The notes beneath the pieces are model-generated. The model saw only the letters and a list, made by a program, of their open reading frames with translations, searched no databases and was not told the DNA's origin. A stretch of DNA of 64,000 bases from Marinifilum sp. D737 (GTDB taxonomy: Bacteria > Bacteroidota > Bacteroidia > Bacteroidales > Marinifilaceae), in the NCBI RefSeq assembly GCF_026672275.1, contig NZ_JANQCD010000003.1, positions 124,001-188,000 of the forward strand. Direction: 5' to 3'. The position numbers and the translations under genes are program-made. How positions within the stretch are numbered: position 1 is the first letter of the stretch; every line of letters starts with the position of its first letter. Shown piece after piece: positions 33,336-51,377 of the stretch.

Positions 33336-34820
33336 ATGAAGAACTTCTTTAACTCAATAATGAAACCAGCATCCGTTTTGGCATTGGCATCTTTGCTGGC
33401 GGTATCCTGTCAAAGCAAAAAAGTACAGGAAATTCATCAGCAACACCCCAATGTCCTTTTTATTGCCATTGATGATTTAAAACCCATGTTGGGTTGTTAT
33501 GGCGATAGTTTGATACAAACGCCAAACATTGATCACTTGGCACAAACAGGAGTAGTTTTTACAAATACTCACTGTCAGCAGGCGGTGTGTGGCCCTTCCC
33601 GTGCCAGTTTGCTAACGGGAATGCGACCTGATTTTACGAAAATATACGACCTGAAGACATTCATACGAGATAAAAATCCTGATATTACCACGCTTCCGCA
33701 GCATTTCAAAAACAATGGATACAGCACCGCAGCAGTGGGGAAGGTTTTCGATGTTCGCTCGGTAGATCAGTATCATGATTCCCTTTCGTGGAGTGAGCCT
33801 TACGAGCTTTTGGAAGGTTCCAACCCAATTGGAGAAGGATGGATCTATTCCAAAAAACGAATTAGTACCGAAGCTCCAGATGTTGCCGACAGCATTACTG
33901 TTGATGGAAAGATTTTGATGAGGGGAAATGAGTTGATGCAGCAATTGTCCGGGCAGTCAAAACCTTTCTTTTTGGCTGTAGGCTTTCATAAGCCACACTT
34001 GCCCTTTGTGGCTCCCAAAAAATACTGGGATCTCTATGATCGAAATGATTTTAAGGTGCATCCTTTCCAGGAGAAACCAGAAAATGCACCAGACTTTGCC
34101 TATCAGCCAGGTTGGGAAATCAGAAGTTTGTATGAAGATGTTCCCAAAAAAGGGAAGATTACAGACAGCAAACAACTGGAGTTGATTCATGGGTATCATG
34201 CCTGTGTTTCTTTTATAGACCAGCAAGTAGGCCTGTTGTTGAAACAGTTGGACGATTTGGAATTGAGAGAGAATACCATTGTGGTATTGTGGGGCGATCA
34301 TGGATGGCATTTGGGCGACCATGACATGTGGTGCAAACACACCAATTACGAGCAGTCTACACGCTCTCCGCTCATCGTTTCCTATGGTTCCAAATATAAA
34401 GGGAGCAATGCTTCACCTACCGAATTTGTTGATATTTTTCCTACCCTTTGTGAGTTAAGCGGTGTGAATATTCCAGCTAAACTTGATGGAACAAGTCTGC
34501 TTTCCATCATGAGTAGAGAAAAGGAAAAGGTGAAAGATGTTGCGGTGAGTCAGTTTCACAGAAATGGGAATCTTATGGGATATGCTTTTAGAAATGAACG
34601 TTACCGTTATGTGGTGTGGTTCAAAAGCAAATTCAAACAAGAGGAGATTGGTGCTTTTGGCGAGGGTATGATAGTTGCCAAAGAGCTTTACGACTATAAA
34701 ATGGATCCTTTGGAAACCTGCAACCTGATTGATGACAGTGCTTACACTTCGGCCAGAAAAGAGATGGAGCAATTGAGCAAAGACTATTTTCAAAAGAGTG
34801 TGAAACTTGTTCAGAATTGA
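33336..34820 (+). CDS. S1-family sulfatase 9 (S1_7 type)
   Basis: A 494-residue lipoprotein sulfatase (lipobox AVSC). Motifs: VLFIAIDDLKPMLGCYGD, Cys85 in QQAVCGPSRASLLTGMRP, VGFHKPHLPFVAPKKYWDLYDR, VVLWGDHGWHLGDHDMWCKHTNY. It is the third paralogue of the 25758 and 47316 group but lacks their inserted region after the signature. It starts one base after the stop of sulfatase 8, so the two are translationally coupled. A strong terminator follows. Confidence 0.93.
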   Translation: MKNFFNSIMKPASVLALASLLAVSCQSKKVQEIHQQHPNVLFIAIDDLKPMLGCYGDSLIQTPNIDHLAQTGVVFTNTHCQQAVCGPSRASLLTGMRPDFTKIYDLKTFIRDKNPDITTLPQHFKNNGYSTAAVGKVFDVRSVDQYHDSLSWSEPYELLEGSNPIGEGWIYSKKRISTEAPDVADSITVDGKILMRGNELMQQLSGQSKPFFLAVGFHKPHLPFVAPKKYWDLYDRNDFKVHPFQEKPENAPDFAYQPGWEIRSLYEDVPKKGKITDSKQLELIHGYHACVSFIDQQVGLLLKQLDDLELRENTIVVLWGDHGWHLGDHDMWCKHTNYEQSTRSPLIVSYGSKYKGSNASPTEFVDIFPTLCELSGVNIPAKLDGTSLLSIMSREKEKVKDVAVSQFHRNGNLMGYAFRNERYRYVVWFKSKFKQEEIGAFGEGMIVAKELYDYKMDPLETCNLIDDSAYTSARKEMEQLSKDYFQKSVKLVQN

Positions 34821-34882: not shown

Positions 34883-34936
34883 ATTTTTGAGACTTGTGGG
34901 TATGTTCCAATAATTTTTAATATCGATTAAACTTTC

Positions 34937-35382
34937 GGCTTTGTATGATTTGTAGTGGGTAAATACTATAAGTGCCTAGAGTACTTGGAATACTTGCAGT
35001 ACTTAAAATGAAAATGTTAGAGATAAAAAGATCGTGAGGTGATCTACAATAAACTGCTCAATTTGAGCGGGCTTTGCGGGCATTGGAAGGTCAAGCTGAT
35101 TAGACGCAGAAAACATTTAGAGAGACGGGGAAGCTTCGAAGAATTGAGAAGATCACCCCGCCGAACTTAATGTTTTCAAGTATAAGTAGCTTGAGCTTAC
35201 CCGCCCTAGATCTTTTGCTTCTTTTCCAGCAATGGGAAAAGAAGAGCCATGCGGCTTGAGCAAAAAATAAATCGTTGAGTAATCTATGCTATATGATGGA
35301 ATAATTAATCCAACAGTAAGCAATTTGTAAGGATGATAAAGAACTCTTAAAATGAATTACCCATTGTATTCCATATAGCACC
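34937..35382 (+). mobile_element. MITE-like element, copy A
   Basis: A 446-bp non-coding element bounded by about 26-bp terminal inverted repeats whose inner ends read AGTGGGTAA and TTACCCATT. A second copy lies at 55714-56057 in the opposite orientation. Each pair of matching ends agrees at 23 of 26 positions by my count, and the two ends of one element type agree at about 19 of 26. An internal core of about 185 bp (35093-35276, from GGGCATTGGAAGGTCAAGCT to GCCATGCGGCTTGAGC) is strongly conserved between copies, while the flanks of the core differ. No open frame is shared. It may be a non-autonomous transposon; I could not find a clear target-site duplication. A structured RNA is another reading of the core. 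Confidence 0.65.
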
Positions 35383-35527
35383 AAATTTTTGGAAGAATGC
35401 CCATAAAAATTGAGTGCCAAATTTTCGCTTTGGCTCAAATTATGGGAATTTGAAACTCAAAATATCACTTAACAAGTGTTGTTTCCTTCCCGAAAAATCG
35501 CTTGAAAAACTACTGTTTTTGGTTCAT

Positions 35528-35797
35528 CTATTTTCTTTTAGAGTATTCAAATACATTAGTTGGAAAAGCTAAAAAAGAGCCTTTGTATTTCTGTAGTAGG
35601 CTGGCAATTAGTTTTTTCAAGTAAGCTTCTTTTTTGCGGTCAATCCCGATAGATCGTAAAACCTACCTTTCCGATTCATGAGTGAACCATCTTTCGTCCC
35701 CCTCAATCTATTTTTGCTACTGTTCCTTAAGGTTAAAAACGAGGTCTTCTACAGTGTGCCATCGTTTGTGCCGATAAGGAACAAGGGATAACGAAAC
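35528..35797 (-). pseudogene. Possible gene relic with three in-frame stops
   Basis: One minus-strand frame reads protein-like sequence (LVPYRHKRWHTVEDLVFNL, then EGDERWFTHESER, then IDRKKEAYLKKLIASLLQK) up to a TAG at 35528-35530 but is broken by three TAG codons. The composition is protein-like, which suggests the end of a decayed gene, perhaps of a mobile element near the MITE-like copy. I do not recognise the family and chance cannot be excluded. The rest of 35383-35895 shows nothing else that I can support. Confidence 0.25.
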
Positions 35798-35895
35798 TCA
35801 AAGATAATTGATAAATTTTTCAATTGGCAGAGGTTTTTTCAAGCAAATAGAAATTGAGAGTAAGCAGGCTGGTTGAAGGAAAAAATAACAAATAC

Positions 35896-37611
35896 ATGAA
35901 CGAAACTATAAAAACAAGAAGAAGCACAGGTCTTTTATCAAGATCAGCTAAGAGCTTAAGTTTAGCGATGTTGCCATTCTGTTTATTGGCAGGAGAAAAT
36001 CAGGCGCAGGCTTCTGCATCTGTAAGTAAAAACGGTGATTCGGCAGGGAAGCATATCGCTTCGCAGCAGGAAAAACCAAATATCATCTTTTTTATTGCGG
36101 ATGATATGGAACGTTTTCAATTTAATTGTTTGCCAGAAGGGAAGGGGAAAAACCTAACACCCAATATAGATCGTTTGGCGAAGGAGGGAACTGTGATGTT
36201 CGGACAGCATGTGAGTTCAGCTGTTTGCACGCCAAGTCGTTTTTCTTGTTTGACTGGTCAGTATGCAAGTCGCGCTCAAAACGAAGGGTTTTTGAAGGAT
36301 ACCAAGAGAATGGATGGGGAAACTGTGGTGCAATGGAATTCTTTTATGACACCAAAATCGAATTCAATTGCCAAGCTTTTGAAAAAGCAGGGATATACCA
36401 CAGGTTTTTTCGGAAAAGATCATGTAATTGAGGCAGAAGGTTGGAGAAAACTTCCTTTGGATACGGATCCTACTTCGCCGGATGCTGTGAAAGTACTGAA
36501 ACGCAATGCCAATCTGATTTCCGATGCCATGAACAAGTGTGGTTTTGATTATGCTGGTGCAAATTATTACGATAATCCAAGCTACCTGGGACCTGAAAAG
36601 TTGAGATATCACAATCTGGACTGGATTACTGAGAAGAGTCTGGATTTTATGGATAAAGCAGAGGATCAGCCTTTCTTCCTTTACTATGCTACAACGGTTC
36701 CTCACGGACCAACAAATGCAGAGCAGGCCTGGGATGCGGATCGCAGAATCACCTCAGAAGGAATTTTGGATAAAGCACCTAATGTTCAACCAGCCAAAGA
36801 GACAATTGGTCAGCGTTTAATTGATGCAGGATTGGCAACGCCGGGAAATATTCCTGAAAACAAAGCCAATGTATTGTGGATTGACGATGCTCTTGGTGCT
36901 TTAATGCAAAGGCTGGAAGATGAAGGAAAGTTAGACAATACCATCATTTTCTTCTTTAGCGATCACGGTCAGTATGCCAAAGGATCGGTTTACGAAGGCG
37001 GTGTAAGTAGCCCGTCAATTGTATGGAAAAAGGGAGGATTCAAGTGCGGTAATAGAAACGAGGCCTTGGTTTCAAACATCGACTTTGCACCAACCATCTA
37101 CGATATGGCCGGTGGAAAAGTTGAAAAGGTGAAAGCCTTTGATGGAAAAAGTTTCTTGCCAATTCTGGATGGAAAGAAGGAAAAGATTCACGAGTCGCTT
37201 TATTTCGAAATGGGATTCTCTCGCGGGGTGTTGATGGACAATCACAAATACATTGCTTTGCGCTACCCTGAGTATGCTATGAACTGGAGCATGAAAGAGC
37301 GTCAGCAGAAGTTGGATGACTGGAACAATTTCCGTATCGCAAACAAATTGAAATACCATTTCGATGATGCAAGTCTTCCTTTTTCACACTTGATGTTGAT
37401 ACCTGGAGGTGGTGATGCTGAATACCCTTCAACAAAACGCTATAAGCACTATTACGATGCCGATCAGCTTTACGATTTAAATAAAGACCCTAAGGAACAA
37501 GATAACCTGTATGAAAACGAGGCTTACAGCGCCAAGTTAAAGGGATTGAAGAAAGAGTTGAAAAAGTATTTGAATGACTTACCGGGTATTTTCGGTGAAT
37601 TTAAGAAGTAG
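35896..37611 (+). CDS. S1-family sulfatase 10
   Basis: A 571-residue secreted sulfatase. The start at 35896 ([12 protein letters not shown]) is preferred over 35854. The signal peptide is long and ends near QAQASA. Motifs: [17 protein letters not shown], where the usual Gly after the Asp pair is changed, Cys111 in [32 protein letters not shown] where Lys-Asp-His replaces the usual Lys-Trp-His, and [18 protein letters not shown]. These differences and extra length set it apart from the other eleven, so it probably has a distinct substrate. It lies after a 1-kb non-coding gap and begins the block containing the cytoplasmic glucan phosphorylases. Confidence 0.92.
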
Positions 37612-37628
37612 AAATTAGTTGGTTAGAA

Positions 37629-37663
37629 AAGAGTAGGAACTATTTGTTACGTCCTGCTCTTTG
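37629..37663 (+). terminator. Hairpin between sulfatase 10 and GH94
   Basis: AAGAGTAGGA and TCCTGCTCTT form a 10-bp stem (one G-U pair) with a 13-base loop and only a short T-run. Weak terminator or processing site. Confidence 0.45.
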
Positions 37664-37697
37664 TCCCGAAAATGATCAATCGGCAACAGAAACATTA

Positions 37698-40148
37698 ATG
37701 ACTAAGAAAATGAAGTACGGATTTTTTGATGATGAAAGAAGAGAGTATGTAATTACTCAGCCCAATACCCCATTTCCATGGATCAATTATTTAGGTAACG
37801 AGGATTTTTTCTCCTTGGTTTCAAATACAGCAGGAGGTTACAGTTTTTATAAGGATGCCAAGTTTCGTCGCTTGAACAGGTATCGTTACAACAATGTGCC
37901 AATGGATAACGGTGGACGTTATTTCTATATCAAGGACAATGACACAATTTGGTCGCCAGGGTGGAAACCTGTAAAGACAGAATTGGACAAGTATGAGTGT
38001 CGTCATGGTTTGAGTTATACTAAGATTACAGGTGAAAAAAATGGACTGGAGTCAGAAGTTACTCTTTTCATTCCACTTGGGAATTGGTGCGAAATTCAGA
38101 AAATGAAATTGACCAACAAGAGTGAAGAAGTTAAAAAGTTTAAGCTTTTCTCTTACAATGAGTGGTGTTTGTGGAATGCCGAGGATGATCAAAACAATCT
38201 TCAGCGTAACCTTTCTACCGGAGAAGTTGAGATTGATGGCTCTACATTGTACCACAAAACAGAATACAAGGAACGTAGAAATCACTTTGCGTTTTATCAT
38301 GTAAATGCCGATATCGATGGTTATGATACCGACCGCGAATCATTCATGGGATTGTATAATGAAGCTTCAGGACCACAGGCTGTTTTAGATGGAGCTCCTC
38401 GCAATTCAGAAGCCCACGGATGGTCTCCAATTGCATCTCATTATTTCGAGATTGAGTTGCAGCCAGGAGAAAGTAAAGATTTGATTTTTGTTTTGGGATA
38501 CGTTGAAAATGCAGAAGACGACAAGTGGGAGAGCAAAGGCGTTATCAATAAAACAAAAGCAAAGGCACAGATTGCCAAATTTGATACAGTTGAAAAGGTA
38601 GATGCTGCCCTGGCAGAACTGGCTGCTTACTGGGAAAACCTATTGAGTATTATTACGCTGGATCACGAGGATGATAAGTTGAACCGAATGGTAAACATCT
38701 GGAACCAGTACCAGTGTATGGTTACCTTTAACATGTCTCGTTCTGCATCTTTCTTCGAGGTAGGTATCGGACGTGGTATGGGATTCCGTGATTCAAACCA
38801 GGATTTAATCGGATTTGTACACCAGGTTCCTGAACGTGCCCGTGAGAGAATCATCGATATTGCTTCTACTCAGTTTCCTGATGGAGGATGTTACCACCAG
38901 TATCAGCCACTTACCAAAAGAGGTAACGATGCCATTGGTGGAGGATTTAACGATGATCCAATGTGGTTGATTTTAGGAACTGTTAGCTATATCAAGGAAA
39001 GTGGTGATTTCTCAATTCTTGATGAAATGGTACCATTTGATAATGATGAAAGCCTGGCTCAGCCATTGTTTAATCACCTAACGGTTTCTTTCGATCATGT
39101 GATTAACAACTTAGGACCAAATGGGCTGCCATTGATCGGAAGAGCTGACTGGAACGACTGTTTGAACTTAAACTGTTTCTCAACCAATCCGAATGAATCT
39201 TTCCAAACAACTGAGAACAACACCGAAGGTTCGAAAGCAGAATCATTGATGATTGCAGGTTTGTTTGTTGTTTATGGAAACGATTATATCGATTTGTGTA
39301 AGCAACTGGGCAAAACAGAAGAAGCCGGGCGTGCACAGAAAGCTGTGGATGCAATGAAAGAAGCTGTTAAAGCCAAAGGTTGGGATGGAGAATGGTTCCT
39401 TCGCGCCTACGATTTTCATGGAAACAAAGTAGGATCTGACGAAAATGAAGAAGGAAAGATCTTTATTGAATCTCAGGGATGGTGCTCCATGGCTGAAATC
39501 GGAATCGAAGAAGGCATGGTAGAGAAATCATTAAATAGTGTAAAGGAAAGATTGAATACACCTTACGGTATTGTATTGAATAATCCTGCTTTCAGCAAGT
39601 ATATGATTGAATATGGCGAAATCTCAACTTATCCTGCCGGATACAAGGAGAATGCCGGAATTTTCTGTCACAACAACCCATGGATTATTATCGGGGAAAC
39701 CAAAATTGGTCGCGGTAAGGAAGCATGGAATTACTTCAAGCAAATCTGTCCTTCTTATTTAGAGGAAGTTCAGGAACTTCATAAGGTAGAGCCTTATGTG
39801 TATTGCCAGATGATTGCAGGTAAGGATGCTTACAAACCAGGTGAAGGTAAAAACAGCTGGTTGTCAGGTACAGCCGCATGGAATTTCTATGCAGTTGTTC
39901 AATATATCCTGGGAATACAGCCAGACTATAATGGAATAAAAATAGATCCTTGTATTCCTGAAGAATGGAAAACCTATACTGTAAACCGTAAGTTCAGAGG
40001 TGCAAATTATCAGATTGAAGTGGTAAATCCTGAGGGTGTTTCCAAAGGAGTTAAAGAGCTTTGGTTGAATGATCAGAAATTGGATGCCAATATCGTTCCT
40101 GTAATGGATAAAGGAACCTGTAATAAGGTGAAAGTTGTTATGGGATAA
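37698..40148 (+). CDS. cbp: GH94 cellobiose phosphorylase
   Basis: A cytoplasmic enzyme of about 816 residues, without a signal peptide, that would split cellobiose with phosphate into glucose 1-phosphate and glucose. The start is set at 37698 ([17 protein letters not shown]); 37710 is equally possible, and the frame open from 37644 is not needed. Close resemblance to cellobiose phosphorylases is seen in [41 protein letters not shown] and [15 protein letters not shown], where Asp487 is the expected catalytic acid. Length matches the family (about 810). It saves ATP by making a sugar phosphate directly and shows that cellobiose or a derivative reaches the cytoplasm. It is followed by the symporter that likely supplies it. 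Confidence 0.92.
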
Positions 40149-40194
40149 AAGCAAGAACAAAATCAATGCTTAGTAATAATTAACTATACAGTGG

Positions 40195-40242
40195 ATAGCC
40201 CGGCTTGCGACAGACAATTAATCTGCCTCAGGTTCGGGCTAT
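40195..40242 (+). other. Long hairpin upstream of the symporter
   Basis: ATAGCCCG (40195-40202) pairs with CGGGCTAT (40235-40242) around a 32-base loop that can fold further (CAGAC/TCTG). It lies 43 bp before the symporter start and has no T-run, so it could be a leader structure or a processing site. Confidence 0.4.
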
Positions 40243-40285
40243 TGAAATACAATATAGACAAGACTTTTTAACCAAACGAAATTCG

Positions 40286-41914
40286 ATGAATAACGAAAAG
40301 ATACATATCAAAGAAAAGATTGGATACGGTTTAGGGGATACGGCCTCAAACCTGTTCTTTCAATCCTTCATGCTGTTTCTTCTGTATTTTTATACAGATG
40401 TATTCGGTATTCCTGCTGCGGCAGCAGGAACCATGTTTCTGGTAACCAGAATCTGGGATTCGGTAAACGATCCTTTAATGGGAATTTTATCAGACAGAAC
40501 CAACACCAAGTGGGGAAAGTTTCGACCATATATTCTGTGGTTGGCCATTCCATTTGGAATTATCGGAGTGCTAACATTTACGACTCCTGATTGGTCTGTA
40601 GCCAGTAAAATTGTATATGCATACATTACCTATACACTAATGATGATGGTGTATACAGCTATCAATATTCCTTACTCTGCCTTGATGGGAGTGGTTTCAT
40701 CCAACCCTATTCAGCGTACAAGCTTTTCTCAGTACCGATTTATTTTTGCTTTTGCCGGGGCTTTTATTGTGCAGGGGATTACTCTTCCTTTGGTTCAACA
40801 ATTTGGAGGAAACGATGATTCCGTTGTAATCGCAGAGCAGGTTCAGAATGAAATTGTGATCACTGAAAAAGGAACCGGAACATCTAAAATTGAATTGGAA
40901 GCTACCCTACCTGGCGAAGAACCGGTTGAAGGAAAAATATCACTTTGTGTACTTACTCCTGAAATGTTTGCTGAGGCAGATACTACAAGTGGACTACTGA
41001 CTTTGCAGAAGGGATTTGAAAAGAGAAGCGTATCCGTGACCGATTATATGGAAGGCGTGGATTTGAGCAAGGCTCAACTGAAAGTAAGTGTTGTGAATGA
41101 ACGCAAAGGTTTTATGTGGGCCATGGTGGTTATGGCTACCCTGGCGGTGATCATGTTCCTGATTACTTTTGCGACTACCAAAGAGAGAGTTCAGCCTGCG
41201 AAAGAGCAAAAAACATCACTTAAAGATGACATCAAAGATTTGGCAGCCAACAAGCCATGGTGGATTTTGTTTGTGCTGGGAATCTTTACCTTATCCTACG
41301 TTTCCGTTCGAAATGGTGCCATCATGTATTACTTTAAATACTATGTGGGGAATGATGCCCTGGCCTCAGGCTTTATGATTGCAGGTACCATTGCAACCAT
41401 TGCATCTATCACCTTAACGGAGTGGTTGTCGAAAACCTTCGGGAAAAAGAGAGCCTACATCTATAGCATGATCCTTACCAGTGTCTTAACCGTTGCCTTC
41501 TATTTTGTTGGCAAGGACGATATTGTAGCAATGTTTGTATTACAGGTATTGATCAGTTTCGTATTTGGGCCAACCGCACCTTTGGTGTTTGCCATGTATA
41601 CCGATGCGGCAGACTATTCAGAGTGGAAAACCGGGCGAAGAGCTACAGGACTGGTAATGTCGGCATCAACCATGGCACAAAAGTTTGGATGGACCATTGG
41701 AGGAGCATTGGCAGGATGGTTATTGGCTGCATTTGGTTTCAAGGCCAATGTAGAGCAAGCCGAAGGAGCTTTAACAGGAATTCAATTGATGATGAGTTTG
41801 ATTCCTGCTGCGGGAAGTGTGCTGGCAGCCATCTTTATGCTGTTCTACAAGCTGGATGAGAAATTTTTGGGCGAAGTAGAACAGGAGTTGAAGTTAAGAA
41901 GAGTAAAGGCCTAA
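40286..41914 (+). CDS. GPH-family sugar:cation symporter with inserted periplasmic loop
   Basis: A 542-residue MFS transporter of the glycoside-pentoside-hexuronide family. The start at 40286 (MNNEKIHIKEKIGYGLGD) is typical of the family. SDRTNTKWGKFRPYILW is the conserved cytoplasmic loop between helices 2 and 3, and MYTDAADYSEWKTGRRATGLV is the conserved late motif. It is about 90 residues longer than usual. Between helix 5 (FAFAGAFIVQGITLPLV) and helix 6 (FMWAMVVMATLAVIMFLI) lies a hydrophilic segment of about 105 residues that topology places in the periplasm, with beta-rich sequence such as SKIELEATLPGEEPVEGKISL. Placed between two GH94 genes, it most likely imports cellobiose or a related disaccharide. 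Confidence 0.9.
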   Translation: MNNEKIHIKEKIGYGLGDTASNLFFQSFMLFLLYFYTDVFGIPAAAAGTMFLVTRIWDSVNDPLMGILSDRTNTKWGKFRPYILWLAIPFGIIGVLTFTTPDWSVASKIVYAYITYTLMMMVYTAINIPYSALMGVVSSNPIQRTSFSQYRFIFAFAGAFIVQGITLPLVQQFGGNDDSVVIAEQVQNEIVITEKGTGTSKIELEATLPGEEPVEGKISLCVLTPEMFAEADTTSGLLTLQKGFEKRSVSVTDYMEGVDLSKAQLKVSVVNERKGFMWAMVVMATLAVIMFLITFATTKERVQPAKEQKTSLKDDIKDLAANKPWWILFVLGIFTLSYVSVRNGAIMYYFKYYVGNDALASGFMIAGTIATIASITLTEWLSKTFGKKRAYIYSMILTSVLTVAFYFVGKDDIVAMFVLQVLISFVFGPTAPLVFAMYTDAADYSEWKTGRRATGLVMSASTMAQKFGWTIGGALAGWLLAAFGFKANVEQAEGALTGIQLMMSLIPAAGSVLAAIFMLFYKLDEKFLGEVEQELKLRRVKA

Positions 41915-41934
41915 TTTTTAATTGTAAATTGAAT

Positions 41935-42010
41935 AGGGGCTGCAAGGCGTAGAGGTTTTGTTATTTGGTAGAGTACATTTTGTAGTGGTGTACTCGATTT
42001 GGCAGCCCCT
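41935..42010 (+). other. Structured intergenic RNA element after the symporter
   Basis: A nested fold: outer stem AGGGGCTGC (41935-41943) with GCAGCCCCT (42002-42010), inner stem GAGTACA (41971-41977) with TGTACTC (41989-41995). The outer stem is GC-rich in an AT-rich region. No long T-run follows, so simple termination is doubtful. Confidence 0.45.
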
Positions 42011-42050
42011 CATTCATTTGAATTAGTTCGAACTTGAAAAGTTGAATTGC

Positions 42051-43739
42051 ATGAATAAGAGAGTAATTATATCGATAGGAATTTTCCTGCTGGCAGCTTT
42101 GTCTGTCATGAGTCAGACAATTGAACCTTTACAATCTGTTAAGACAAAGCAGAAGTTGCTTGCTTTCACATTTGATGATGGACCCAATCCGCAGACTACT
42201 GCTGAAATCATGAACTTGTTTGAGAAAGCAGAAGGAAAAGCCACTTTCTTTACCATTGGGAAAAACCTGTCGAAGCATACGGCCTTAGCCAAAGAGGTAT
42301 TGCAAAGAGGGCACGAAATAGGCAACCATAGCATGACGCACAAGCGTCCGTTGGAAACTACCACGGAAGATGAATCGATGCTGGAGATAAAAGGCTTTCA
42401 GGAGATGATACAAAAAGAATTGGGATACTCACCAAGCTTGTATCGTGCCCCTTTTCTAAAGTATGATATGCTGAATAGTGATAGTTTGGAATCTCTTGGC
42501 TTGAAAGCGGTGAATGCTTCCGTTTATGCCAGGGATGCAAAGAAAGATGTACCGGTTGAGGGAATCGTAAAACGAATCATGGAAGGAGTTCATTCAGGGG
42601 CGATTGTTCTTTGCCATGAGAGACAACATACCATCAAAGCATTGAAACAAGTACTTCCTCAGTTAAAATCAGAGGGATATCAGTTTGTCACCGTATCGCA
42701 ATTGCTGTCTTCGGGTGAAGAAAATTCCATAGCAGCCAATCATCCGCTGATTGAGATTAAAGGAAGTAAATATCATTACATCAAGAATGGAGTGATGGTA
42801 TTTCCTCGTCATTCAGCCAGCTTATTGGCAATGTCGAAAACCAAAAGCAAGTTTAGTCCTGTAAAAGCACAAACAAACACGGGTGTTATTGTGTCCTTTA
42901 AAACGGCCAGTCCCAAAGTAAAAATCAACTTTAAAGTATTGGAAGGAGACAATCGAGGACCTGTTTTCGGAATCTACCAAAATAAGGAGTTTGTAAAAGT
43001 CGCCAAGTTTGGAAAAAAGGATGGACCCTTATTGTCATTTGATATAGAATCTGCGCATAAAGCTAAAGAAGTTAGCTATGAAATCAGTCTTCCGAACTGG
43101 TCCAATGTAGGTCTTGTAAATATTGAACTGGAAGAAGGACATCACTTGGAAGAAATCAAATCGGAAGAGAAACCTGTTTATGTGGCTTACGGAAATTCCA
43201 TTACCCATGGTACCGGTCAGCAGGCAAGTCATCAAAGCTATCCTTTTATACTGTCCCGTGAAATGAACTGGGATTTGTATAACCTGGCAGTAGGAGGAGG
43301 GAAAACTTCTGTGCCTATGGCTGAAATGATCAGGGATGACTTTTCCCATATCGATTACATGACCATCCTGATTGGATACAATGATTATAATGGAGAGGGA
43401 ATATCAGCGAAAGCGTACAGCAAAAGATTGGAGAATTTCCTGAAAACCCTACGAGAAAAGCACAGCCTTACCAAATTGTTCTGTATAACACCAACCCACA
43501 CAAAAACTTTGCGCAGTAAAAAGAGTGGGGAGAGTATAGGTGAATTTAGAAAGAGTATGACTCAGGTGGTGAAAGAGTTTCAACAGAATGGCGATCAGAA
43601 TATTTTCCTAATCAGGGGAGAAGAGATTTCCAAACTCGAAGACCTGAAAGATGCCGTTCACTTTAATGTGGAAGGTGCCAAAAGCTTTGGCGAGAAACTA
43701 TCAATAGAATTAAAGAAGAGACTAGCTACTAATAACTAG
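42051..43739 (+). CDS. Fusion carbohydrate esterase: CE4 polysaccharide deacetylase + SGNH esterase
   Basis: A 562-residue secreted protein (signal MNKRVIISIGIFLLAALSVMSQ) with two esterase modules. The N-terminal NodB domain (about 32-215) has AFTFDDGPNP with the Asp pair, HEIGNHSMTH as zinc-binding H-x3-H, and RAPFLKYD. The middle (about 225-365) is a beta-sandwich like the one that precedes the SGNH domain in CE2-type esterases. The C-terminal SGNH hydrolase (about 370-560) has YVAYGNSITHGTG with the nucleophile Ser, the Gly block AVGGGKTS, IGYNDYNG with the Asn, and DAVHFNVEG with the Asp/His pair. Both types remove acetyl groups from sugars, so it should deacetylate the incoming oligosaccharide, by N- or O-deacetylation in the first module and O-deacetylation in the second. 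It sits between the symporter and the second GH94. Confidence 0.88.
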   Translation: MNKRVIISIGIFLLAALSVMSQTIEPLQSVKTKQKLLAFTFDDGPNPQTTAEIMNLFEKAEGKATFFTIGKNLSKHTALAKEVLQRGHEIGNHSMTHKRPLETTTEDESMLEIKGFQEMIQKELGYSPSLYRAPFLKYDMLNSDSLESLGLKAVNASVYARDAKKDVPVEGIVKRIMEGVHSGAIVLCHERQHTIKALKQVLPQLKSEGYQFVTVSQLLSSGEENSIAANHPLIEIKGSKYHYIKNGVMVFPRHSASLLAMSKTKSKFSPVKAQTNTGVIVSFKTASPKVKINFKVLEGDNRGPVFGIYQNKEFVKVAKFGKKDGPLLSFDIESAHKAKEVSYEISLPNWSNVGLVNIELEEGHHLEEIKSEEKPVYVAYGNSITHGTGQQASHQSYPFILSREMNWDLYNLAVGGGKTSVPMAEMIRDDFSHIDYMTILIGYNDYNGEGISAKAYSKRLENFLKTLREKHSLTKLFCITPTHTKTLRSKKSGESIGEFRKSMTQVVKEFQQNGDQNIFLIRGEEISKLEDLKDAVHFNVEGAKSFGEKLSIELKKRLATNN

Positions 43740-43751
43740 AGATTGAAGAAA

Positions 43752-46145
43752 ATGAAGTACGGATATTTTGACGATAAGAATAAAGAATATGTAGTGGAAC
43801 GACCGGATACTCCGGCATCATGGACCAACTACCTTGGAGATACAAACTACGGAGCGATTATAACCAATAATGCCGGAGGATACAGCTTTTACAAATCAGC
43901 AGCTCAGGGGCGCTTTACCCGATTGCGTTTCAACTCAGTTCCTATGGATCAGGCAGGGCGTTACCTGTATTTTCACGACAAGGATTCCAAAGATTTTTGG
44001 TCAGCTTCATGGCAGCCAGTTGGAAAGTCGCTGGAGCAATTTAAAACCGAGTGCCGACACGGAACTGCTTACACAAAAATTAGTTCGGAATACAAAGATA
44101 TCGCTTCGGAAGTAAGTTACTTTGTTCCCAGGGGAAAGGCTTACGAAGCATGGATGGTGAAGCTTACCAATAAGGGCAAGGAGACAAGAAACTTAAGAGC
44201 TTTTCCGTTTGTAGAGTATGCCTGTAACTGGAATGCAGGGGATGATTTGGGCAACCTTCAGTACACGCAGTACATCGCAAACATGTCGGTTGTTGATGGC
44301 ATTATCGATCATGGATCGAATATCAACATGCCTGAAATGCCTGAGGATTTTCAGCAGAAGGATCAGCAGCGCCATACTTTCTTTGCCATGGTAGGTGCAG
44401 AGGTTTCAGGTTATGATACCGATAGGGATGTATTTATAGGCAGATACAATGGCTATGGTAATCCTGAGGTTGTTCAAAAAGGGGAATGCGCAGGCTCACT
44501 GGCCGAAGGAGGAAATCCTTGTGGGGTTTTACAAACAGACATTTGTTTGCAGCCAGGAGAATCTGTTGAGTTCGCCATTGTCATGGGAATTGGTAGTGCA
44601 CAAAAAGAAGGTGCTGAGGTAAAAGAGAAATATGCAGACCTATCGATTCTGAAAAATGAATTGGAAGAGTTAAAGAACTACTGGCACAGCCGTTTGGAAG
44701 TAATGCAAGTTGAAACTCCTGATGCTGATGTTAACAGCATGCTGAACGTTTGGAGTCCATACAATTGTCAGATTACCTATGCATGGTCAAGAGCTGCCAG
44801 TTTAGTATATGCTGGAGTTCGTGATGGTTTAGGTTATCGTGATTCAGTGCAGGATATGTTGGGCGTGATGCATTCGGTTCCCGAAGAGGCAGGAGAACGT
44901 CTGGAGCTATTGATCACAGGTCAGGCTTCAACCGGAGGAGCGATGCCAGTAGTGAAGCCATTCGCACACAAACCAGGACAGGAGAAAGAACCTGAGGCAA
45001 ATGAATACCGTTCAGACGATTGTTTGTGGTTGTTCAATGCCATTCCTGAATATGTAAATGAAACCGGGAATTTTGATTTCTACCTAAAAGAACTACCCTA
45101 TGCCGATAAGGGGAAAGATTCTGTACTTGGACATTTAAGAAGAGCCATTGAGTTTAACCTGGAGCGTTCAGGAGCCCATGGTATTCCTTGTGGATTGGCT
45201 GCCGACTGGAATGACTGTCTGGTTTTAGGCTATAAGGGTGAATCAGTTTTTGTAGCCTTCCAGTTACGATATGGTTTGGCAAAATACATGGAGATTGCTG
45301 GTAAGCTTGGCTTGGAAAGTGAAGTGGAATGGGCAGAACAGGAGTTAAGAATTTTGGATAAGAGCCTGGAAGAGAATTGCTGGGATGAGGACAGATATGT
45401 TCGTGCCTTTAGCGATAAAGGATTCCGTTTTGGAGCCAAAGAGAATGAAGAAGGTAATATTTTCATGAATCCACAGGTTTGGGCTGTGATTAGTGGTCAT
45501 GCCAATAGGGAAAAAGCCGAAAAGGCAATGAATGTTGTTCACGACGATTTGTATACCGATTATGGTATCATGTTGTGTGCTCCACCATTCGAAAAATCAG
45601 ATTTTGATATCGTTCGTGCCGTATTGTTCAACCCTGGAATGAAAGAGAATGCTGGGATTTTCAACCATACGCAAGGTTGGGGAGTGATGGCTGAAAGTAT
45701 GCTGGGAAATGGAAACAGAGCATACAAGTATTACAAGAGCTACTTGCCAGCTGCCTATAACGACAAGGCAGAAATCAGAGAGATAGAGCCTTATGTATAT
45801 GCACAATCAACACATAGTGTTTACAGCAAGCGATTTGGTTCTTCTCGTTTGCCATGGTTGAGTGGAACAGCTACCTGGGCCTATTATGCAGCAACGCGTT
45901 ACCTTTTGGGAATTCGTCCTGAAATTGATGGATTGACAGTAGATCCTTGTATTCCGGATTCATGGGAAGGCTTTAAAGTGCTTAGAAATTTCAGAGGTGC
46001 GGTTTATAACATCTCTGTTTCAAACCCTAATCGTGTGATGAAAGGGATTGCCTGCCTAAAAATAAACGGTGAAATTATTGAAGGAAACAAGCTACCTGTT
46101 GGCGAAGAAGGCAAAGAATATCAGGTGGAAGTAATTATGGGATAA
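43752..46145 (+). CDS. GH94 disaccharide phosphorylase 2, specificity unknown
   Basis: A 797-residue cytoplasmic GH94 enzyme; the ATG at 43752 is chosen over an in-frame TTG three codons upstream, giving MKYGYFDDKNKEYVVERP. Catalytic Asp488 lies in GLAADWNDCLVLGYKGES. It differs from the first GH94 in substrate-site regions: YRDSVQDMLGVMHSVPEEAG, TGQASTGGAMPVVKPFAHKPG and a YRSDDCLWLF block replace the cellobiose phosphorylase sequences, and GYKGESVF replaces [12 protein letters not shown]. This suggests another acceptor or linkage, such as N-acetylated, oxidised or otherwise modified disaccharide; the family includes chitobiose, cellobionate and laminaribiose phosphorylases. It starts 12 bp after the esterase gene and ends 18 bp before a GH5 gene. 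Confidence 0.88.
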   Translation: MKYGYFDDKNKEYVVERPDTPASWTNYLGDTNYGAIITNNAGGYSFYKSAAQGRFTRLRFNSVPMDQAGRYLYFHDKDSKDFWSASWQPVGKSLEQFKTECRHGTAYTKISSEYKDIASEVSYFVPRGKAYEAWMVKLTNKGKETRNLRAFPFVEYACNWNAGDDLGNLQYTQYIANMSVVDGIIDHGSNINMPEMPEDFQQKDQQRHTFFAMVGAEVSGYDTDRDVFIGRYNGYGNPEVVQKGECAGSLAEGGNPCGVLQTDICLQPGESVEFAIVMGIGSAQKEGAEVKEKYADLSILKNELEELKNYWHSRLEVMQVETPDADVNSMLNVWSPYNCQITYAWSRAASLVYAGVRDGLGYRDSVQDMLGVMHSVPEEAGERLELLITGQASTGGAMPVVKPFAHKPGQEKEPEANEYRSDDCLWLFNAIPEYVNETGNFDFYLKELPYADKGKDSVLGHLRRAIEFNLERSGAHGIPCGLAADWNDCLVLGYKGESVFVAFQLRYGLAKYMEIAGKLGLESEVEWAEQELRILDKSLEENCWDEDRYVRAFSDKGFRFGAKENEEGNIFMNPQVWAVISGHANREKAEKAMNVVHDDLYTDYGIMLCAPPFEKSDFDIVRAVLFNPGMKENAGIFNHTQGWGVMAESMLGNGNRAYKYYKSYLPAAYNDKAEIREIEPYVYAQSTHSVYSKRFGSSRLPWLSGTATWAYYAATRYLLGIRPEIDGLTVDPCIPDSWEGFKVLRNFRGAVYNISVSNPNRVMKGIACLKINGEIIEGNKLPVGEEGKEYQVEVIMG

Positions 46146-46163
46146 TCTTACAAATAAATAAGT

Positions 46164-47114
46164 ATGAGACAAAAAATTCTTATTCTAATAGCTGCTCTGT
46201 TTGTATGCGGAGAAGCCCTGGCAAAAGCTCCGGTTAGGAAACACGGAAAATTAAAAGTGGTTGGTCGTCAGTTGTGCGATGAAAATGGTAGTGTTGTTCA
46301 AATCAAGGGGATGAGTTCCCATGGTTTGTATTGGTTTGCACACTGTATGAACAGAAGTTCTATGGAAGTTTTGGCCAAAAACTGGAAGGTTGATGCAGTG
46401 CGATTCGCTTTGTATCCAAAGAACTATAAAGACAATCCGGCCTATTATACCAGGCAAGTTGATGAGTTGGTTGAAATAGCGGAAGAATTGGGGCTGTATT
46501 GTATTATCGACTGGCATGCTATGGATTCAGGAAATCCGAATAAAGTGCTGGATGATGCGAAAGTGTTCTGGGAGCACATGTCGAAAACCCATGCAGGCAA
46601 GGAGCATGTGATTTATGAGATTTGTAACGAACCCAATAAAACAACCTGGGAAGAGGTGAAGAAATATGCAAATGTGATTATTCCATTGATTCGTAAAAAC
46701 GATAAGGAAACCGTTATTCTGGTAGGAACACCTGATTGGAGTTCAAATCTTGCAGCGGCGGCTAAGGATCCTTTGAATTTTGAGAATATCATGTATACTT
46801 TCCATTTTTATGCCAAGAGTCACAAAAACAGGAAGGCATTTATCGAGGCCATTCAACAAATTCCGGTATTCGTTTCGGAATGGGGTACCAGTAGCTACAA
46901 TGGAGATGATGGAAATGATTACGAGAGTGCCAAAATCTGGTTGGATATTCTGGCAGGAAACAATCCGGAGCAGCTTAAAATTAGTTGGATGAACTGGAAT
47001 TTGAGTGACAAACCAGAAGCTTCATCGGTATTTAAACCAGGAAGCGGTGTACGTCAGGAATGGGATCAGTTGACTGAGACCGGGGAGTGGATTAAAAAGC
47101 AGTTTGGGAGATAG
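46164..47114 (+). CDS. GH5 endo-beta-1,4-glucanase
   Basis: A 316-residue single-domain cellulase with a signal peptide (ILILIAALFVCGEALA). KLKVVGRQLCDENGSVVQIKGMSSHGLYWF is split over the typical first strand of GH5_2 enzymes. YCIIDWHAMDSGNP holds the conserved His, the acid/base is Glu156 in YEICNEPNKTTW, and the nucleophile is Glu239 in VFVSEWGTS. MNWNLSDKPEASS completes the site. It should cut internal beta-1,4-glucosidic bonds in the periplasm or outside the cell. It has no sorting tail, so it probably acts on imported chains. It lies 18 bp after GH94 gene 2. Confidence 0.93.
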   Translation: MRQKILILIAALFVCGEALAKAPVRKHGKLKVVGRQLCDENGSVVQIKGMSSHGLYWFAHCMNRSSMEVLAKNWKVDAVRFALYPKNYKDNPAYYTRQVDELVEIAEELGLYCIIDWHAMDSGNPNKVLDDAKVFWEHMSKTHAGKEHVIYEICNEPNKTTWEEVKKYANVIIPLIRKNDKETVILVGTPDWSSNLAAAAKDPLNFENIMYTFHFYAKSHKNRKAFIEAIQQIPVFVSEWGTSSYNGDDGNDYESAKIWLDILAGNNPEQLKISWMNWNLSDKPEASSVFKPGSGVRQEWDQLTETGEWIKKQFGR

Positions 47115-47257
47115 CAGCTATCAGCTATCAGCAGTCAGCGTTCAGTCTTTAGTTGTTTACTAAAAATCATTTACTAAAATTTCGAAGAATCGGATTGAGT
47201 TTTATGACTGAGATTTTTCTTTTAGCTGATAGCTTGTAGCTGACCGCTGATCGCTAT
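47111..47257. repeat. Imperfect long inverted repeat (GCTATCAGC-type)
   Basis: ATAGCAGCTATCAGCTATCA (47111-47130) and following bases are mirrored by GCTGATAGCTTGTAGCTGAC (47225-47244) and beyond, with an AT-rich middle. The left arm overlaps the TAG stop of the GH5 gene. Repeats of this CAGCTATCAGC type look like dispersed chromosomal repeats and may also protect the 3' end of the transcript. Confidence 0.55.
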
Positions 47258-47315
47258 AAAAACACCATTTTAGAGATTAAATTAGACTTAGATCGAATAC
47301 ACTATAACTAAGACC

Positions 47316-48884
47316 ATGAAGAAGCATATCATAAAAAAAGGAATAGGTCTGGCAATGGTAGTAATGCCATTACTAGGGCAAGCACAGGAAAAGAAAAATG
47401 TTCTTTTCATTGCTGTGGATGATTTGAAACCTGTTTTGGGATGCTATGGTGCGGAGCAAATGAAGACTCCCAATATAGATCAACTGGCAAAGCAAGGGGT
47501 TGTTTTTATGAATAATCATTGTCAGCAGGCAGTATGTGCTCCATCCAGAGCTAGTTTGCTAACAGGAGTTCGTCCCGATAGTACCAGGGTGTGGGATTTG
47601 AAAACGAAGATCAGAGATAAGAATCCTGATATTTTGACTTTGCCACAGTATTTTAAAAATCAGGGATACACAACTACAGGAGTGGGTAAGATTTACGATC
47701 GCCGCAGTGTAGATGCAAAACACGACAAGCTTTCCTGGAGTGAGGAATTTGCCTTTAGTGGTGATGAAAAATACAAGAATACAGAACTTGGGGAAGAAGT
47801 TCTGGGTCATTATCAGTCTGCAGAAACAAAGGATAAAGTAGCTTTCTATACTGCAGAAGGGAAAAAGAAGAATAAAAAAAGAGGTGCTTTAAACAAGTAT
47901 GTGATGAAGCACATTAAACCTTCAACCGAATGTGTGGATGTTCCTGATAACGCTTACACTGATGGTGTACTTGCTTTATCAGCAGTTGAAAGGTTGGAGA
48001 GGTTATCGAAAGAGGAACAGCCTTTCTTTTTAGCGGTTGGTTTTAAGAAACCGCACTTGCCATTTGTGGCTCCTAAAAAGTATTGGGATTTGTACGACAG
48101 AAATGAGCTTCCTTTGGCAGCTTATCAGAAGTTTTCTAAAAACGGGCCAAAAATCGCTTATCACAAATCAGGAGAAATTCAGTCGTATAGCGATATTCCT
48201 AAATTGAAGTCTTTCTCAGATATTGGACCAGATCTACTTCCTGAAGAGAAACAAAGGGAATTGATTCATGGCTACTATGCATCGGTTTCCTATATGGATG
48301 CACAGGTGGGAAAAGTGTTGCAAGCCTTGGATTCACTTGGCTTACGAGAGAGTACCATAATTGTATTGTGGGGCGATCATGGTTGGCATTTGGGGGATCA
48401 TGGCCTGTGGTGCAAGCATTCCAACTTTGAACAGGCAACACGTTCTCCTTTGATTTTTTCAGCACCTGAGGCACAGAAAGGAACAAAAGTGAATGCTCCA
48501 TCGGAGTTTGTAGATATTTTTCCAACACTTTGTGAGCTTTCAGGTATCGAAGAGCCGGAACATTTAGCTGGAACCAGCCTTGTGCCTTTACTTAGAGGAG
48601 AGAAGAAATCTGTAAAGGAATACTCGGTAAGTCAGTTCCGAAGAGGAAAAGCAATGGGCTATGCATTCCGTACCGAGAGATATCGTTACGTGCTTTGGAT
48701 GGGAGAAAACTTTAGAACGACACAAGCTTTCAATAAAGATTTGATCGTAGGGGAAGAACTTTACGATTATCAAAAAGATGAATTGGAAACCCGTAACCTG
48801 CTTGGGAATAAAGAATACAAAAAAGTGTATGAGCAAATGAAAGCTACCAGTGTTGATTTTTTCCAGGCTCAATTCAAAAGATAG
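47316..48884 (+). CDS. S1-family sulfatase 11 (S1_7 type)
   Basis: A 522-residue secreted sulfatase, very close to the one at 25758: both share LLGQAQEKKNVLFIAVDDLK, QQAVCAPSRASLL (Cys74 here), the inserted region, VGFKKPHLPFVAPKKYWDLY and VLWGDHGWHLGDHGLWCKH. The pair must be a relatively recent duplication that has been spread over 20 kb of the locus. Differences concentrate in the inserted region (KNKKRGALNKY here against MGKKGYGITKY), which may alter substrate choice. Confidence 0.93.
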   Translation: MKKHIIKKGIGLAMVVMPLLGQAQEKKNVLFIAVDDLKPVLGCYGAEQMKTPNIDQLAKQGVVFMNNHCQQAVCAPSRASLLTGVRPDSTRVWDLKTKIRDKNPDILTLPQYFKNQGYTTTGVGKIYDRRSVDAKHDKLSWSEEFAFSGDEKYKNTELGEEVLGHYQSAETKDKVAFYTAEGKKKNKKRGALNKYVMKHIKPSTECVDVPDNAYTDGVLALSAVERLERLSKEEQPFFLAVGFKKPHLPFVAPKKYWDLYDRNELPLAAYQKFSKNGPKIAYHKSGEIQSYSDIPKLKSFSDIGPDLLPEEKQRELIHGYYASVSYMDAQVGKVLQALDSLGLRESTIIVLWGDHGWHLGDHGLWCKHSNFEQATRSPLIFSAPEAQKGTKVNAPSEFVDIFPTLCELSGIEEPEHLAGTSLVPLLRGEKKSVKEYSVSQFRRGKAMGYAFRTERYRYVLWMGENFRTTQAFNKDLIVGEELYDYQKDELETRNLLGNKEYKKVYEQMKATSVDFFQAQFKR

Positions 48885-48912
48885 TTTAACCAGACAAGAA
48901 ATACGATAAGAC

Positions 48913-50256
48913 ATGAATCGAAAATTGATGTACTGCCTGTCTCTGTCTCTTTTTTTTCTATGTGCCTGTGGAAGCTCTTCCATTGTTGAGGAGGTAACAG
49001 AGACGATTGACGAGAATGTAGATGATGGAAATACCGACGACGATAATGATGAATCATCGGAAGAGGACCGGATTGAAGGAGTGCTTTATCCGGATGAATT
49101 GGTACAAATGATGGGAAAGGGCTTCGATGTTGCCTGGTCCGAATTCAACAAATACATTGAAAATCATGATGAGCTAAAAGTAATTGATATTGCCGGGGCA
49201 GGTTTTACAATGGTGAGAATTCGTGTGAATAAACCAGCTACGGATGAGCTGTTTTCGCATTTGGATGAACAGATTGATCAGTGTTTGAAGCATGGCTTGA
49301 TTCCTGTATTGGCTTTCCATGGACATGATGCTGAAGATGGAGAGGACATGGAACAGGCAAAGCAAGTTACAGTTGATTGGTGGCGTACTGTTGCGGAGCG
49401 ATACAAGGACTATTCCGATTTGCTTGTGTTCAACCTCTTTGTTGAACTGAATGGCAATTTGAAAAAAGACCATCAGCTTTTGAATGAGTTTTATGCTGAT
49501 ATCATTCCGGCAATTCGGGAATCAAATCCTTATCGAATTCTAATTGTTCCACCGGTTGGTTTATCAAAACCTGCCAATTTGCAATACATTCAATTGCCGG
49601 ATGAAACGGACCCTTTTATTATGATGGAATGGCACTGCTATGCTGCCGGGCCGGCTTTGGAAGGGAACAAGCAATGGACCACAGGAACTCCTGAAGAGCG
49701 CCAATTGGTGCTTGATCATTTTGAGGCTGCCAAGGAATACATGAAAGCAACTGGCCGCTCTACCTGGCTGGGAGCCTGGATGGCTGGGAACTACAACAAG
49801 GGAAATGAGTACGATATTCCTGCTCAGGTGCAGTTTGCTACCTTTTTTGTTCGTGAATTGGCAAAGATAGAAGTGCCTTGGTGTATCAATACCGATGATA
49901 AGTTTTACGACTACCTGAACCTTAGGTGGTATCCGGAAGGAGAATATGGTGGAATTCCGGTACGTGATGTCATATTGGATACAGAAAAAGTTGCTCTCTA
50001 TTCCGGCGAGGGATACCAGGGTGAAAGCTTGCGTTTAAGTCCTGGCGAGTACGATGAGGATGAATTGCAGGCAATGGACTTTGACAATAACATTTCATCA
50101 ATTATGGTCCCTTGGGGATTTAAAGTGATTGCATATACCGGGAAAGGATTTGCTGGAACTGCGCATGAATATACAAGGACAACACGCAGTTTTAGCAGTG
50201 AATTGGAGAATACAATTTCTTCATTGAAGATTATCGATTTGGAAACATACGATTAA
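48913..50256 (+). CDS. GH5-like lipoprotein lacking the nucleophile, with beta/gamma-crystallin-like domain
   Basis: A 447-residue lipoprotein (lipobox LCAC, Cys19) with a very acidic linker (about 27-55, Asp/Glu-rich). The TIM-barrel part (about 60-345) follows GH5 order: FTMVRIRVN, IPVLAFHGHD, LVFNLFVELNGN with Glu178, MMEWHCYA. The usual Asn-Glu-Pro is Val-Glu-Leu here. Where active GH5 members have Glu in the strand-7 motif, this protein has WLGAWMAGNY with Ala288. It is therefore probably inactive and may bind glycan. The C-terminal 90 residues (VALYSGEGYQGESLRLSPG and VIAYTGKGFAGTAHEY) form a beta/gamma-crystallin-like pair of Greek keys, which often bind calcium or sugar. It lies 28 bp after sulfatase 11 and is closed by a terminator. 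Confidence 0.7.
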   Translation: MNRKLMYCLSLSLFFLCACGSSSIVEEVTETIDENVDDGNTDDDNDESSEEDRIEGVLYPDELVQMMGKGFDVAWSEFNKYIENHDELKVIDIAGAGFTMVRIRVNKPATDELFSHLDEQIDQCLKHGLIPVLAFHGHDAEDGEDMEQAKQVTVDWWRTVAERYKDYSDLLVFNLFVELNGNLKKDHQLLNEFYADIIPAIRESNPYRILIVPPVGLSKPANLQYIQLPDETDPFIMMEWHCYAAGPALEGNKQWTTGTPEERQLVLDHFEAAKEYMKATGRSTWLGAWMAGNYNKGNEYDIPAQVQFATFFVRELAKIEVPWCINTDDKFYDYLNLRWYPEGEYGGIPVRDVILDTEKVALYSGEGYQGESLRLSPGEYDEDELQAMDFDNNISSIMVPWGFKVIAYTGKGFAGTAHEYTRTTRSFSSELENTISSLKIIDLETYD

Positions 50257-50284
50257 TCGAACTCAGATTTTTAGATTGGCTAGT

Positions 50285-50327
50285 CAGCCCGCTGATTTCT
50301 TAATTGGAATGGCGGGCTGTTTTTTTT
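50285..50327 (+). terminator. Terminator after the GH5-like gene
   Basis: CAGCCCGC (50285-50292) pairs with GCGGGCTG (50312-50319) and is followed by eight T. It ends the block running from 35896. Confidence 0.85.
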
Positions 50328-50423
50328 CGAATTGACAGGTGAGAATAATAGAGAACTTAGTTGCCCCTTGATTCAAATCGTTGTAAATTAATGAGAACAA
50401 AAATGAATTAAAAAGAATCAAAG

Positions 50424-51335: not shown

Positions 51336-51377
51336 ATGAATACAAAAGAAGACTCTGTACTATACAGAAGTTTCTGA
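51336..51377 (+). CDS. Possible 13-residue leader peptide
   Basis: MNTKEDSVLYRSF is preceded by GGAGGTGATAAAAT, an unusually strong Shine-Dalgarno sequence for Bacteroidota, which mostly start genes without one. The stop lies 19 bp before the anSME start. Its site may be hidden in a hairpin. It could control translation of the enzyme gene downstream; there is no direct evidence that it is made. Confidence 0.3.
   Translation: MNTKEDSVLYRSF

Follow-up and report, generated by a model that had tools for sequence, protein, structure and literature searches.

The two inverted-repeat elements in the window (the whole 64,000-nucleotide stretch of Marinifilum sp. D737 DNA analysed here) are probably independent insertions of a Marinifilum MITE whose arms were moved in trans by an ISL3-type transposase and whose core has been kept as a folded RNA. 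The window lies on contig C64 of a draft genome that totals 5.08 Mb in 130 contigs, and we refer to the two elements as A and B. MITEs are usually regarded as ends plus filler; here, the filler is conserved, pseudoknotted on one strand, and found again across the class Bacteroidia in carriers whose ends differ.

The first-pass annotation had read A and B as an inverted pair of non-coding elements, and their coordinates, opposite orientation, and membership of one family all proved correct. Element A (34937 to 35382, plus strand) is a complete copy of the long-arm subtype, 446 bp in length, and element B (55714 to 56057, minus strand) is a complete copy of the short-arm subtype, 344 bp in length; no open reading frame of at least 80 amino acids overlaps either one. 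Terminal inverted repeats (TIRs) of about 26 bp had been proposed, and we verified them at 26 bp, with about 88% identity between the TIRs of A and B, an inner end AGTGGGTAA, and an outer end GG(C/T)TCTRTATG. When compared with the family consensus, the left TIR of A (GGCTTTGTATGATTTGTAGTGGGTAA, 34937 to 34962, plus strand) matches at 24/26 positions and the right TIR (35357 to 35382, minus strand) at 23/26, while the TIRs of B match at 25/26 (GGTTCTATATGGAATATAGTGGGTAA, 55714 to 55739, plus strand) and 23/26 (GGCTCTGCATGATTTGGAGTGGGTAA, 56032 to 56057, minus strand). The 8-bp target duplications that flank A (AAACTTTC at 34929 to 34936 and AAATTTTT at 35383 to 35390) agree at only 6/8 positions and those that flank B (TTAAATAT at 55706 to 55713 and AGAGATAT at 56058 to 56065) at only 5/8, as expected of older insertions. 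The conserved core, which had been given as 185 bp, is 86% identical between A and B over 195 columns. It spans 35071 to 35263 on the plus strand in A (contig positions 159071 to 159263; covariance model R1, E 1.5e-48) and 55795 to 55990 on the minus strand in B (contig positions 179795 to 179990; E 1.8e-53). Here and below, the E-values of R1 are rough owing to a short calibration, and A, B, and the other training copies match the model by construction.

A count of copies, which the annotation had proposed as a check, revealed that the pair is not a chance likeness, with many further copies and about 34 core sites in the genome. BLAST with A returned 41 matches in the own genome, including some that are fragments of a single copy, and the covariance model of the core gave 42 matches, which were reduced to 34 sites (25 of them above 60 bits) once eight opposite-strand duplicates were removed. 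The true number may be higher, since several draft contigs end inside cores, mostly at a 58-nt insert where the assembly seems to break (L002, L003, L025, L027, and L028, near the ends of C63, C11, C89, C48, and C64). From the own genome and its relatives, 159 nhmmer rows were reduced to 118 distinct ones and then to 80 near-full cores. Two TIRs flank 28 of these 80, and among the 28, the target duplication is exact (8/8) in eight and 7/8 in four. These exact 8-bp duplications in two-TIR copies identify the elements as MITEs. The nested copy L013 (own genome, contig C41, about 81900 to 82400) has an exact 8/8 duplication, TAAAATAC, at its inner TIR; it scored 3/8 in the count of 28 because the outer TIR was used there. 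At this locus, a core-bearing MITE sits inside another element with the same ends, between the outer TIRs. The same ends were also seen without a core in L033, L052, and L054, while L046 holds a core remnant only. Element-free sites, which the annotation had suggested looking for, were found in relatives for three other copies (L016, L108, and L021) as well as for A and B, the latter two in the sister species M. flexuosum. The MITE-like reading of the pair is therefore borne out by TIRs, exact 8-bp duplications, many copies, element-free sites, and a nested insertion.

The annotation had further suggested that recombination between A and B could flip the 20-kb block between them, or that joint movement of the pair could have brought it in. 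The two elements are inverted and have TIRs in common, in keeping with a composite unit that moved, or can flip, the block as one. Comparison with relatives lends support to neither proposal. M. flexuosum carries most of 37185 to 55713 in the same order and orientation but has neither element: it is colinear with the window over 37185 to 52802 (with gaps of 106 and 146 bp) and 55373 to 55713 at 88 to 93% identity, and 35388 to 37400 aligns to it at 95%. The stretch from 52802 to 55373 did not align and is variable. A gene for an HU-like/DUF4469 protein (54535 to 55380) was noted inside this variable stretch. At the sites fetched from M. flexuosum, A had no match longer than 11 bases and B none longer than 10. 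Inspected by eye, the B site there is clean, with a single 8-bp target, ACAAATAT. At the A site, the aligned flanks are separated by about 204 bp of a 41-bp tandem array, whose last unit, again by eye, matches the left flank of A and continues into the right flank, with AAACGTTT at the target position. The array comprises 5.8 units in M. flexuosum (L328:559-796), and the window genome shows one unit at A. M. breve shares B at the same site (L113; flanks 97.7 and 94.3% identical), and the A and B cores differ by 14%. A close pair is also what chance would give: 34 random copies on 5.08 Mb yield 4.3 expected adjacent pairs less than 20.8 kb apart (probability of at least one, 0.99), and 25 copies yield 2.4 (0.92). 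On the strength of the element-free colinear block, the shared B, and these expectations, two separate insertions that happen to lie on either side of the block offer the best account of the bracketing, and a composite unit is extremely improbable. Because M. flexuosum holds the block without A or B, we rejected a composite transposon as its origin, and the case warns that close MITE pairs should not be taken as transposon borders. As for gene content, sulfatase genes of one Pfam family flank A on either side (33336 to 34820 and 35854 to 37611) and B on the right (56112 to 57623), and 51397 to 52605, within the block, encodes a radical SAM/SPASM protein.

What sets these elements apart is the core, which on one strand has the architecture of a 130-nt bulged hairpin, a second hairpin (HP2, helix 6), and a 3' H-type pseudoknot. 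In A (plus strand), the long hairpin, with the foot GGGC/GCCC and a variable tip, occupies 35078 to 35206, HP2 35218 to 35244, and the pseudoknot AGCC-A-TGC-GGCT-TGA-GCA 35245 to 35262; in B (minus strand), the corresponding positions are 55854 to 55983, 55814 to 55842, and 55796 to 55813, the pseudoknot coordinates being read off the sequence in both cases. We examined this fold in an alignment of 49 distinct standard-length cores (A1) with a hand-set structure of 52 pairs. Pairing was observed in 91.1% of 2544 cells. Changes on both sides occurred in 21 of the 52 pairs, compared with 11.1 after shuffling, and double changes in 113 cells, compared with 27.7; none of 500 shuffles was as high on any measure, though related copies inflate such shuffle tests. 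When the partner was slid by 1 to 3 columns, pairing fell to 32 to 66%. On the GGGCATTGG strand, 121 G.T cells were counted against 12 A.C cells and 215 other mismatches among 2548 cells, and within pairs that have a Watson-Crick consensus the count was 50 G.T against 11 A.C. Since G.T far exceeds A.C on this strand, we took it as the folding strand. Single copies also folded better than their shuffles, with z scores of -5.2 for A and, for B, -5.7 when the core-sense strand was folded and -3.6 when its complement was. The covariance search proposed by the annotation thus recovered one conserved fold with compensatory changes, the hallmark used here for a functional RNA and established by shuffle-based tests, together with matches to the model across the class. 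The compensatory changes and the class-wide recurrence strongly support the annotation's inference, drawn from core conservation, that the core has a function beyond the end sequences.

The pseudoknot at the 3' end gave a second test of the fold. The last 18 or so nucleotides of the core follow the pattern AGCC-N-xyzC-GGCT-NNA-Gz'y'x', in which the spacing (one base, none, and three bases) agrees with that of a classical H-type pseudoknot. Across 67 distinct ends, the second stem is Watson-Crick in 194 of 201 cells, and among its pair sets are TGC/GCA, TCC/GGA, TAC/GTA, AGC/GCT, and TGT/ACA. Because these ends were picked by an AGCC-like and GGCT-like stem (two further ends could not be parsed), covariation here tests the second stem only. 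For this stem, the 27 distinct combinations paired at 75 of 81 positions, compared with 57.7 (sd 2.5) when shuffled, and none of 2000 shuffles was as high. We then applied a strict, all-Watson-Crick H-type test to other genomes, with 29 distinct tails kept from 34 rows after removal of two from the own genome (L206) and three in which the second hairpin could not be parsed. Ten of the 29 tails passed, whereas 300 shuffles gave 0.8 on average and never more than 4; the remaining 19 failed, and the tail may have been lost or changed in several lineages. A further contact is suggested between the linker (CUUGAU) and the HP2 loop (AUCAAG), for which the mean longest match was 4.89, against 4.34 (sd 0.12) in shuffles, with none of 1000 as high; this test used 38 distinct pairs, and 41 of 46 modules gave a row. 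The linker-loop pairing is imperfect in A and B and was therefore excluded from their structure.

The core is not confined to one kind of carrier. Cores without two recognisable 26-bp TIRs comprise decayed TIR copies, some of which keep one TIR, and at least two other groups. The first, with CCGG before the last stem, has 11 copies at eight sites when orthologues are merged; by eye, the right arm ends in some form of a motif like AATCAAGGATTGAAAATT in all 11, and the left arm does so too in some. At one site of this group, filled in L011, L114, and L142 and empty in L133, the insertion consists of the core with about 59 bp upstream and 37 to 39 bp downstream. The second, the CTGC group, has five copies at two orthologous sites (L009, L135, and L145; L086 and L134), which end 18 to 30 bp from the stop codon of an opposite-strand gene. 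Found with several kinds of ends, the core is thus common to different carriers. With regard to the neighbouring genes, both could be called in 70 cases, and in 44 of these the upstream gene points into the core (p 0.04, from mechanical open reading frames with orthologous sites uncollapsed; of the 80 cores, nine had no 500-bp flank and one had no right neighbour), a weak bias in orientation.

The cores are themselves targets of insertion. The tips of the long hairpin vary, and nested palindromes are inserted there. Within cores, frequently in the linker or at the tips of hairpins, we observed perfect palindromes (TCCCGATAGCTATCGGGA, TCCCGAAGCTTCGGGA, and TCCCGAAAGCTTTCGGGA) as well as a unit of about 58 nt bounded by TCCCGA...TCGGGA, and their occurrence in L018, L020, L022, L023, L024, L025, L027, L028, L030, and others marks a nested family of small palindromic insertions. 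Another repeated insert of about 50 nt (CCGACCGAAGGGAGCTCATGAATTCC...) was seen in the second hairpin of L005, L017, L105, L106, L118, and L139.

Repeats of this kind are common in Bacteroidetes genomes. An exact scan of named genomes with one core motif returned 58 stretches, 56 from Marinifilum, one from a Labilibaculum MAG, and one from a MAG labelled Winogradskyella. BLAST with the B core gave matches in 23 of the 56 family genomes, which represent 6 of 17 genera. The core model reached further: with the best eight candidates per genome scored, it matched at E of 0.001 or below in 56 of 296 genomes of the class (the own genome included), covering 43 of 165 genera, and strong full-length matches came from several families (G086, E 9e-23; G142, 7e-19; G247, 3e-17). 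The class alignments share the foot, the inner motif UUAGUAAGACCGG.AAGCU...GAAGAUCA.CCGGCCG..CUUA, the U-rich linker, and the second hairpin, while other members of the class keep foot, linker, and second hairpin but have a different inner hairpin (CUGUUUGAG...CGAGUUU). Many of the near-threshold matches in the class seem to rest on the second hairpin and the linker alone, and some of the weaker ones seem to cover no more than the second hairpin and the tail. No match to B was found in the plasmid and phage collections searched. Two contigs of the IMG/VR viral collection (L360 and L361) contain the core's type I inner motif.

We also asked which transposase could move the arms. The annotation had proposed searching for a transposase with the same ends, and none was found in the own genome, where the search with PF01610 (ISL3 transposase) gave no match in the 130 draft contigs. 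PF01610 was matched in 18 of the 56 family genomes, one of them a sister Marinifilum, whose ISL3 locus (L153) has no such ends, with a best score of 18/26. Among 30 ISL3 loci, the best TIR scores were 20/26 and 20/26 at L168 (G032; also the overlapping L177), a decayed ISL3 insertion sequence of 1346 bp from another genus of the family, whose 8-bp flanks match at 5/8 only; the pattern search for ISL3 ends was too loose for use beyond this locus. In another family of the order, one genome (G291) contains six elements of 314 to 316 bp with ends GGCTCTATG...GTGGGTAA, of the same kind as those of the Marinifilum MITE. Four of the six have exact 8-bp target duplications, and the core fold is present with a different inner hairpin; PF01610 gave no match in this genome either. 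From the resemblance of the ends, we infer that an ISL3-type transposase moves the arms in trans.

We hypothesize that an ISL3-type transposase, without a match in the own genome, would have moved the arms in trans as DNA, and that the core would be transcribed by read-through from neighbouring genes and then fold as RNA. It would have been kept because the folded RNA benefits the carrier or is tolerated by the host, and its most plausible role would be to bind a conserved protein or to shield the end of a transcript. The covariation and strand asymmetry suggest that the core most likely acts as a folded RNA, although much of the same covariation would be expected if this strand folded as single-stranded DNA. 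The main alternatives for the core are a role as single-stranded DNA, a role as terminator, and a functionless relic. As a single-stranded DNA element, the core would resemble REP sequences and be copied in its folded form by a Y1 (RAYT) tyrosine transposase, with its RNA-like features a by-product. All five Marinifilum genomes searched contain Y1 genes, the strand asymmetry fits single-stranded DNA as well, and Bacteroidetes TnpA_REP genes of subclass 2.6 are reported to be flanked by atypical secondary structures that have further genomic copies (PMC6006769). What makes this explanation quite improbable is the location of the cores, none of which lies within about 1.5 kb of Y1 at 27 Marinifilum loci or at 30 loci of other core-bearing genomes (a few of these 57 loci overlap or are cut by contig ends); moreover, 3 of 16 core-bearing genomes are without a Y1 match. 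The MITE copies have TIRs and 8-bp target duplications, and to our knowledge Y1 elements have neither. With the core at 0 of 57 Y1 loci, we rejected RAYT/Y1 mobilisation. As a separate observation, one Y1 gene of M. flexuosum (L191, G036:C2 near 803175) adjoins repeats of about 120 bp (CGGTGCGCTGCACC...CTATAAATATTACGCAACTCTGTTGC...) that are of another kind than the core; similar stretches occur in L030 and L142, and these may be RAYT-linked repeats of Marinifilum.

A terminator role would make the core a transcription insulator, in which the long hairpin and T-rich linker end transcription in the sense orientation and so render insertions harmless. The foot-plus-linker pattern is present in 58 of 83 rows, where the next 12 bases hold 6 to 9 T, and the tendency of upstream genes to read into the core points the same way. 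We nevertheless consider this explanation unlikely: a simple terminator scan, which allows loops of 3 to 8 only and would miss a bulged hairpin, passed over the long hairpins of A and B; UAGA or UUGA precedes the U run in the linker; and a terminator has no need of a conserved pseudoknot. If the core were instead the relic of an old insertion sequence or of a palindrome-prone insertion, its covariation would reflect gene conversion and shared descent. The inflation of shuffle tests by related copies is consistent with such decay, as is the partial foldability of the other strand, seen in the eight opposite-strand model matches. Yet much of the pairing is lost once structures are slid, one strand shows a large excess of G.T over A.C, the pseudoknot stem co-varies in Marinifilum and in other genomes without being a simple palindrome, and, judged by eye, sequences of the internal loops reappear in other families of the class, all of which makes a mere relic distinctly unlikely. 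A guide RNA of the TnpB type (omega RNA), or a relative of one, was weighed as well. In omega RNAs, a 3' pseudoknot is followed by non-conserved sequence, a layout that the core and its variable downstream sequence resemble; with the Cas12f1-like/TnpB C-terminal domain (PF07282) in 0 of 14 core-bearing genomes, this identity is highly improbable. On the absence of PF07282 from all 14, TnpB omega RNA was rejected.

Returning to the folded RNA as our preferred reading of the core, a broader formulation can be offered, to which we commit ourselves only tentatively. The core may represent a new structured RNA family, spread through the class, that ends in a 3' pseudoknot and in many genera adds a linker-loop contact. 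It would be a module with interchangeable inner hairpins that is shared by unrelated carriers, rides more than one DNA transposon system, and has its fold under selection, perhaps as the partner of an RNA-binding protein. The transposon ends around it are ISL3-like TIRs in Marinifilum and in the other family of the order described above, and of other kinds elsewhere. If the core is an RNA, it would be a many-copy structured RNA of Bacteroidia with no match over threshold in Rfam release 15, and it would provide a direct way to ask whether an RNA function accounts for the retention of mobile DNA elements.

The element was also compared with several known systems. At the cores tested, no Rfam release 15 family scored above its gathering score, and a known Rfam family was therefore rejected; the matches above that score, one RNase P and one tRNA, both lie away from cores, and sub-threshold matches touch the right arm of A, parts of the B core, and one second-site core of L211. 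A search of the open-licence literature found no description of the element. The Bacteroidetes candidate RNAs in Rfam (6S-flavo, Flavo-1, Bacteroidales-1, and others, as far as given in the cited part of PMC2864571) are likewise structured RNAs of the same phylum, but the tested cores have no match to them over the gathering score. The BrickBuilt MITEs of Porphyromonas gingivalis are also elements of Bacteroidota with TIRs, no internal transposase, and a non-coding interior; unlike in the Marinifilum MITE, that interior consists of 23-nt repeats, the TIRs resemble those of ISPg1/ISPg9 (AAGACCTTTGCA-type), and the description, in the section cited, mentions no pseudoknotted core (PMC4596501). 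REP/BIME sequences with RAYT of Bacteroidetes subclass 2.6 are, in the portion of PMC6006769 cited, dispersed folded elements of the same group of hosts, whereas the core is larger, often lies within elements with TIRs and target duplications in Marinifilum, and adjoins no Y1 gene at the 57 loci examined. The pneumococcal BOX and enterobacterial RU elements, likened here by description only, are small, dispersed, foldable, non-autonomous repeats as well, though of different hosts. The ends may be related to those of ISL3 insertion sequences and the MITEs derived from them, with the TIR pattern GG(Y)TC...GTGGGTAA at both ends of L168 and 8-bp target duplications in the MITE copies, even though the best autonomous match is broken and reaches only 20/26 per TIR and PF01610 gave no match in the own genome. 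The interior is where the two part: the 30 ISL3 loci give a single core match (L172, E 0.0014), whereas the Marinifilum MITE holds a conserved structured core.
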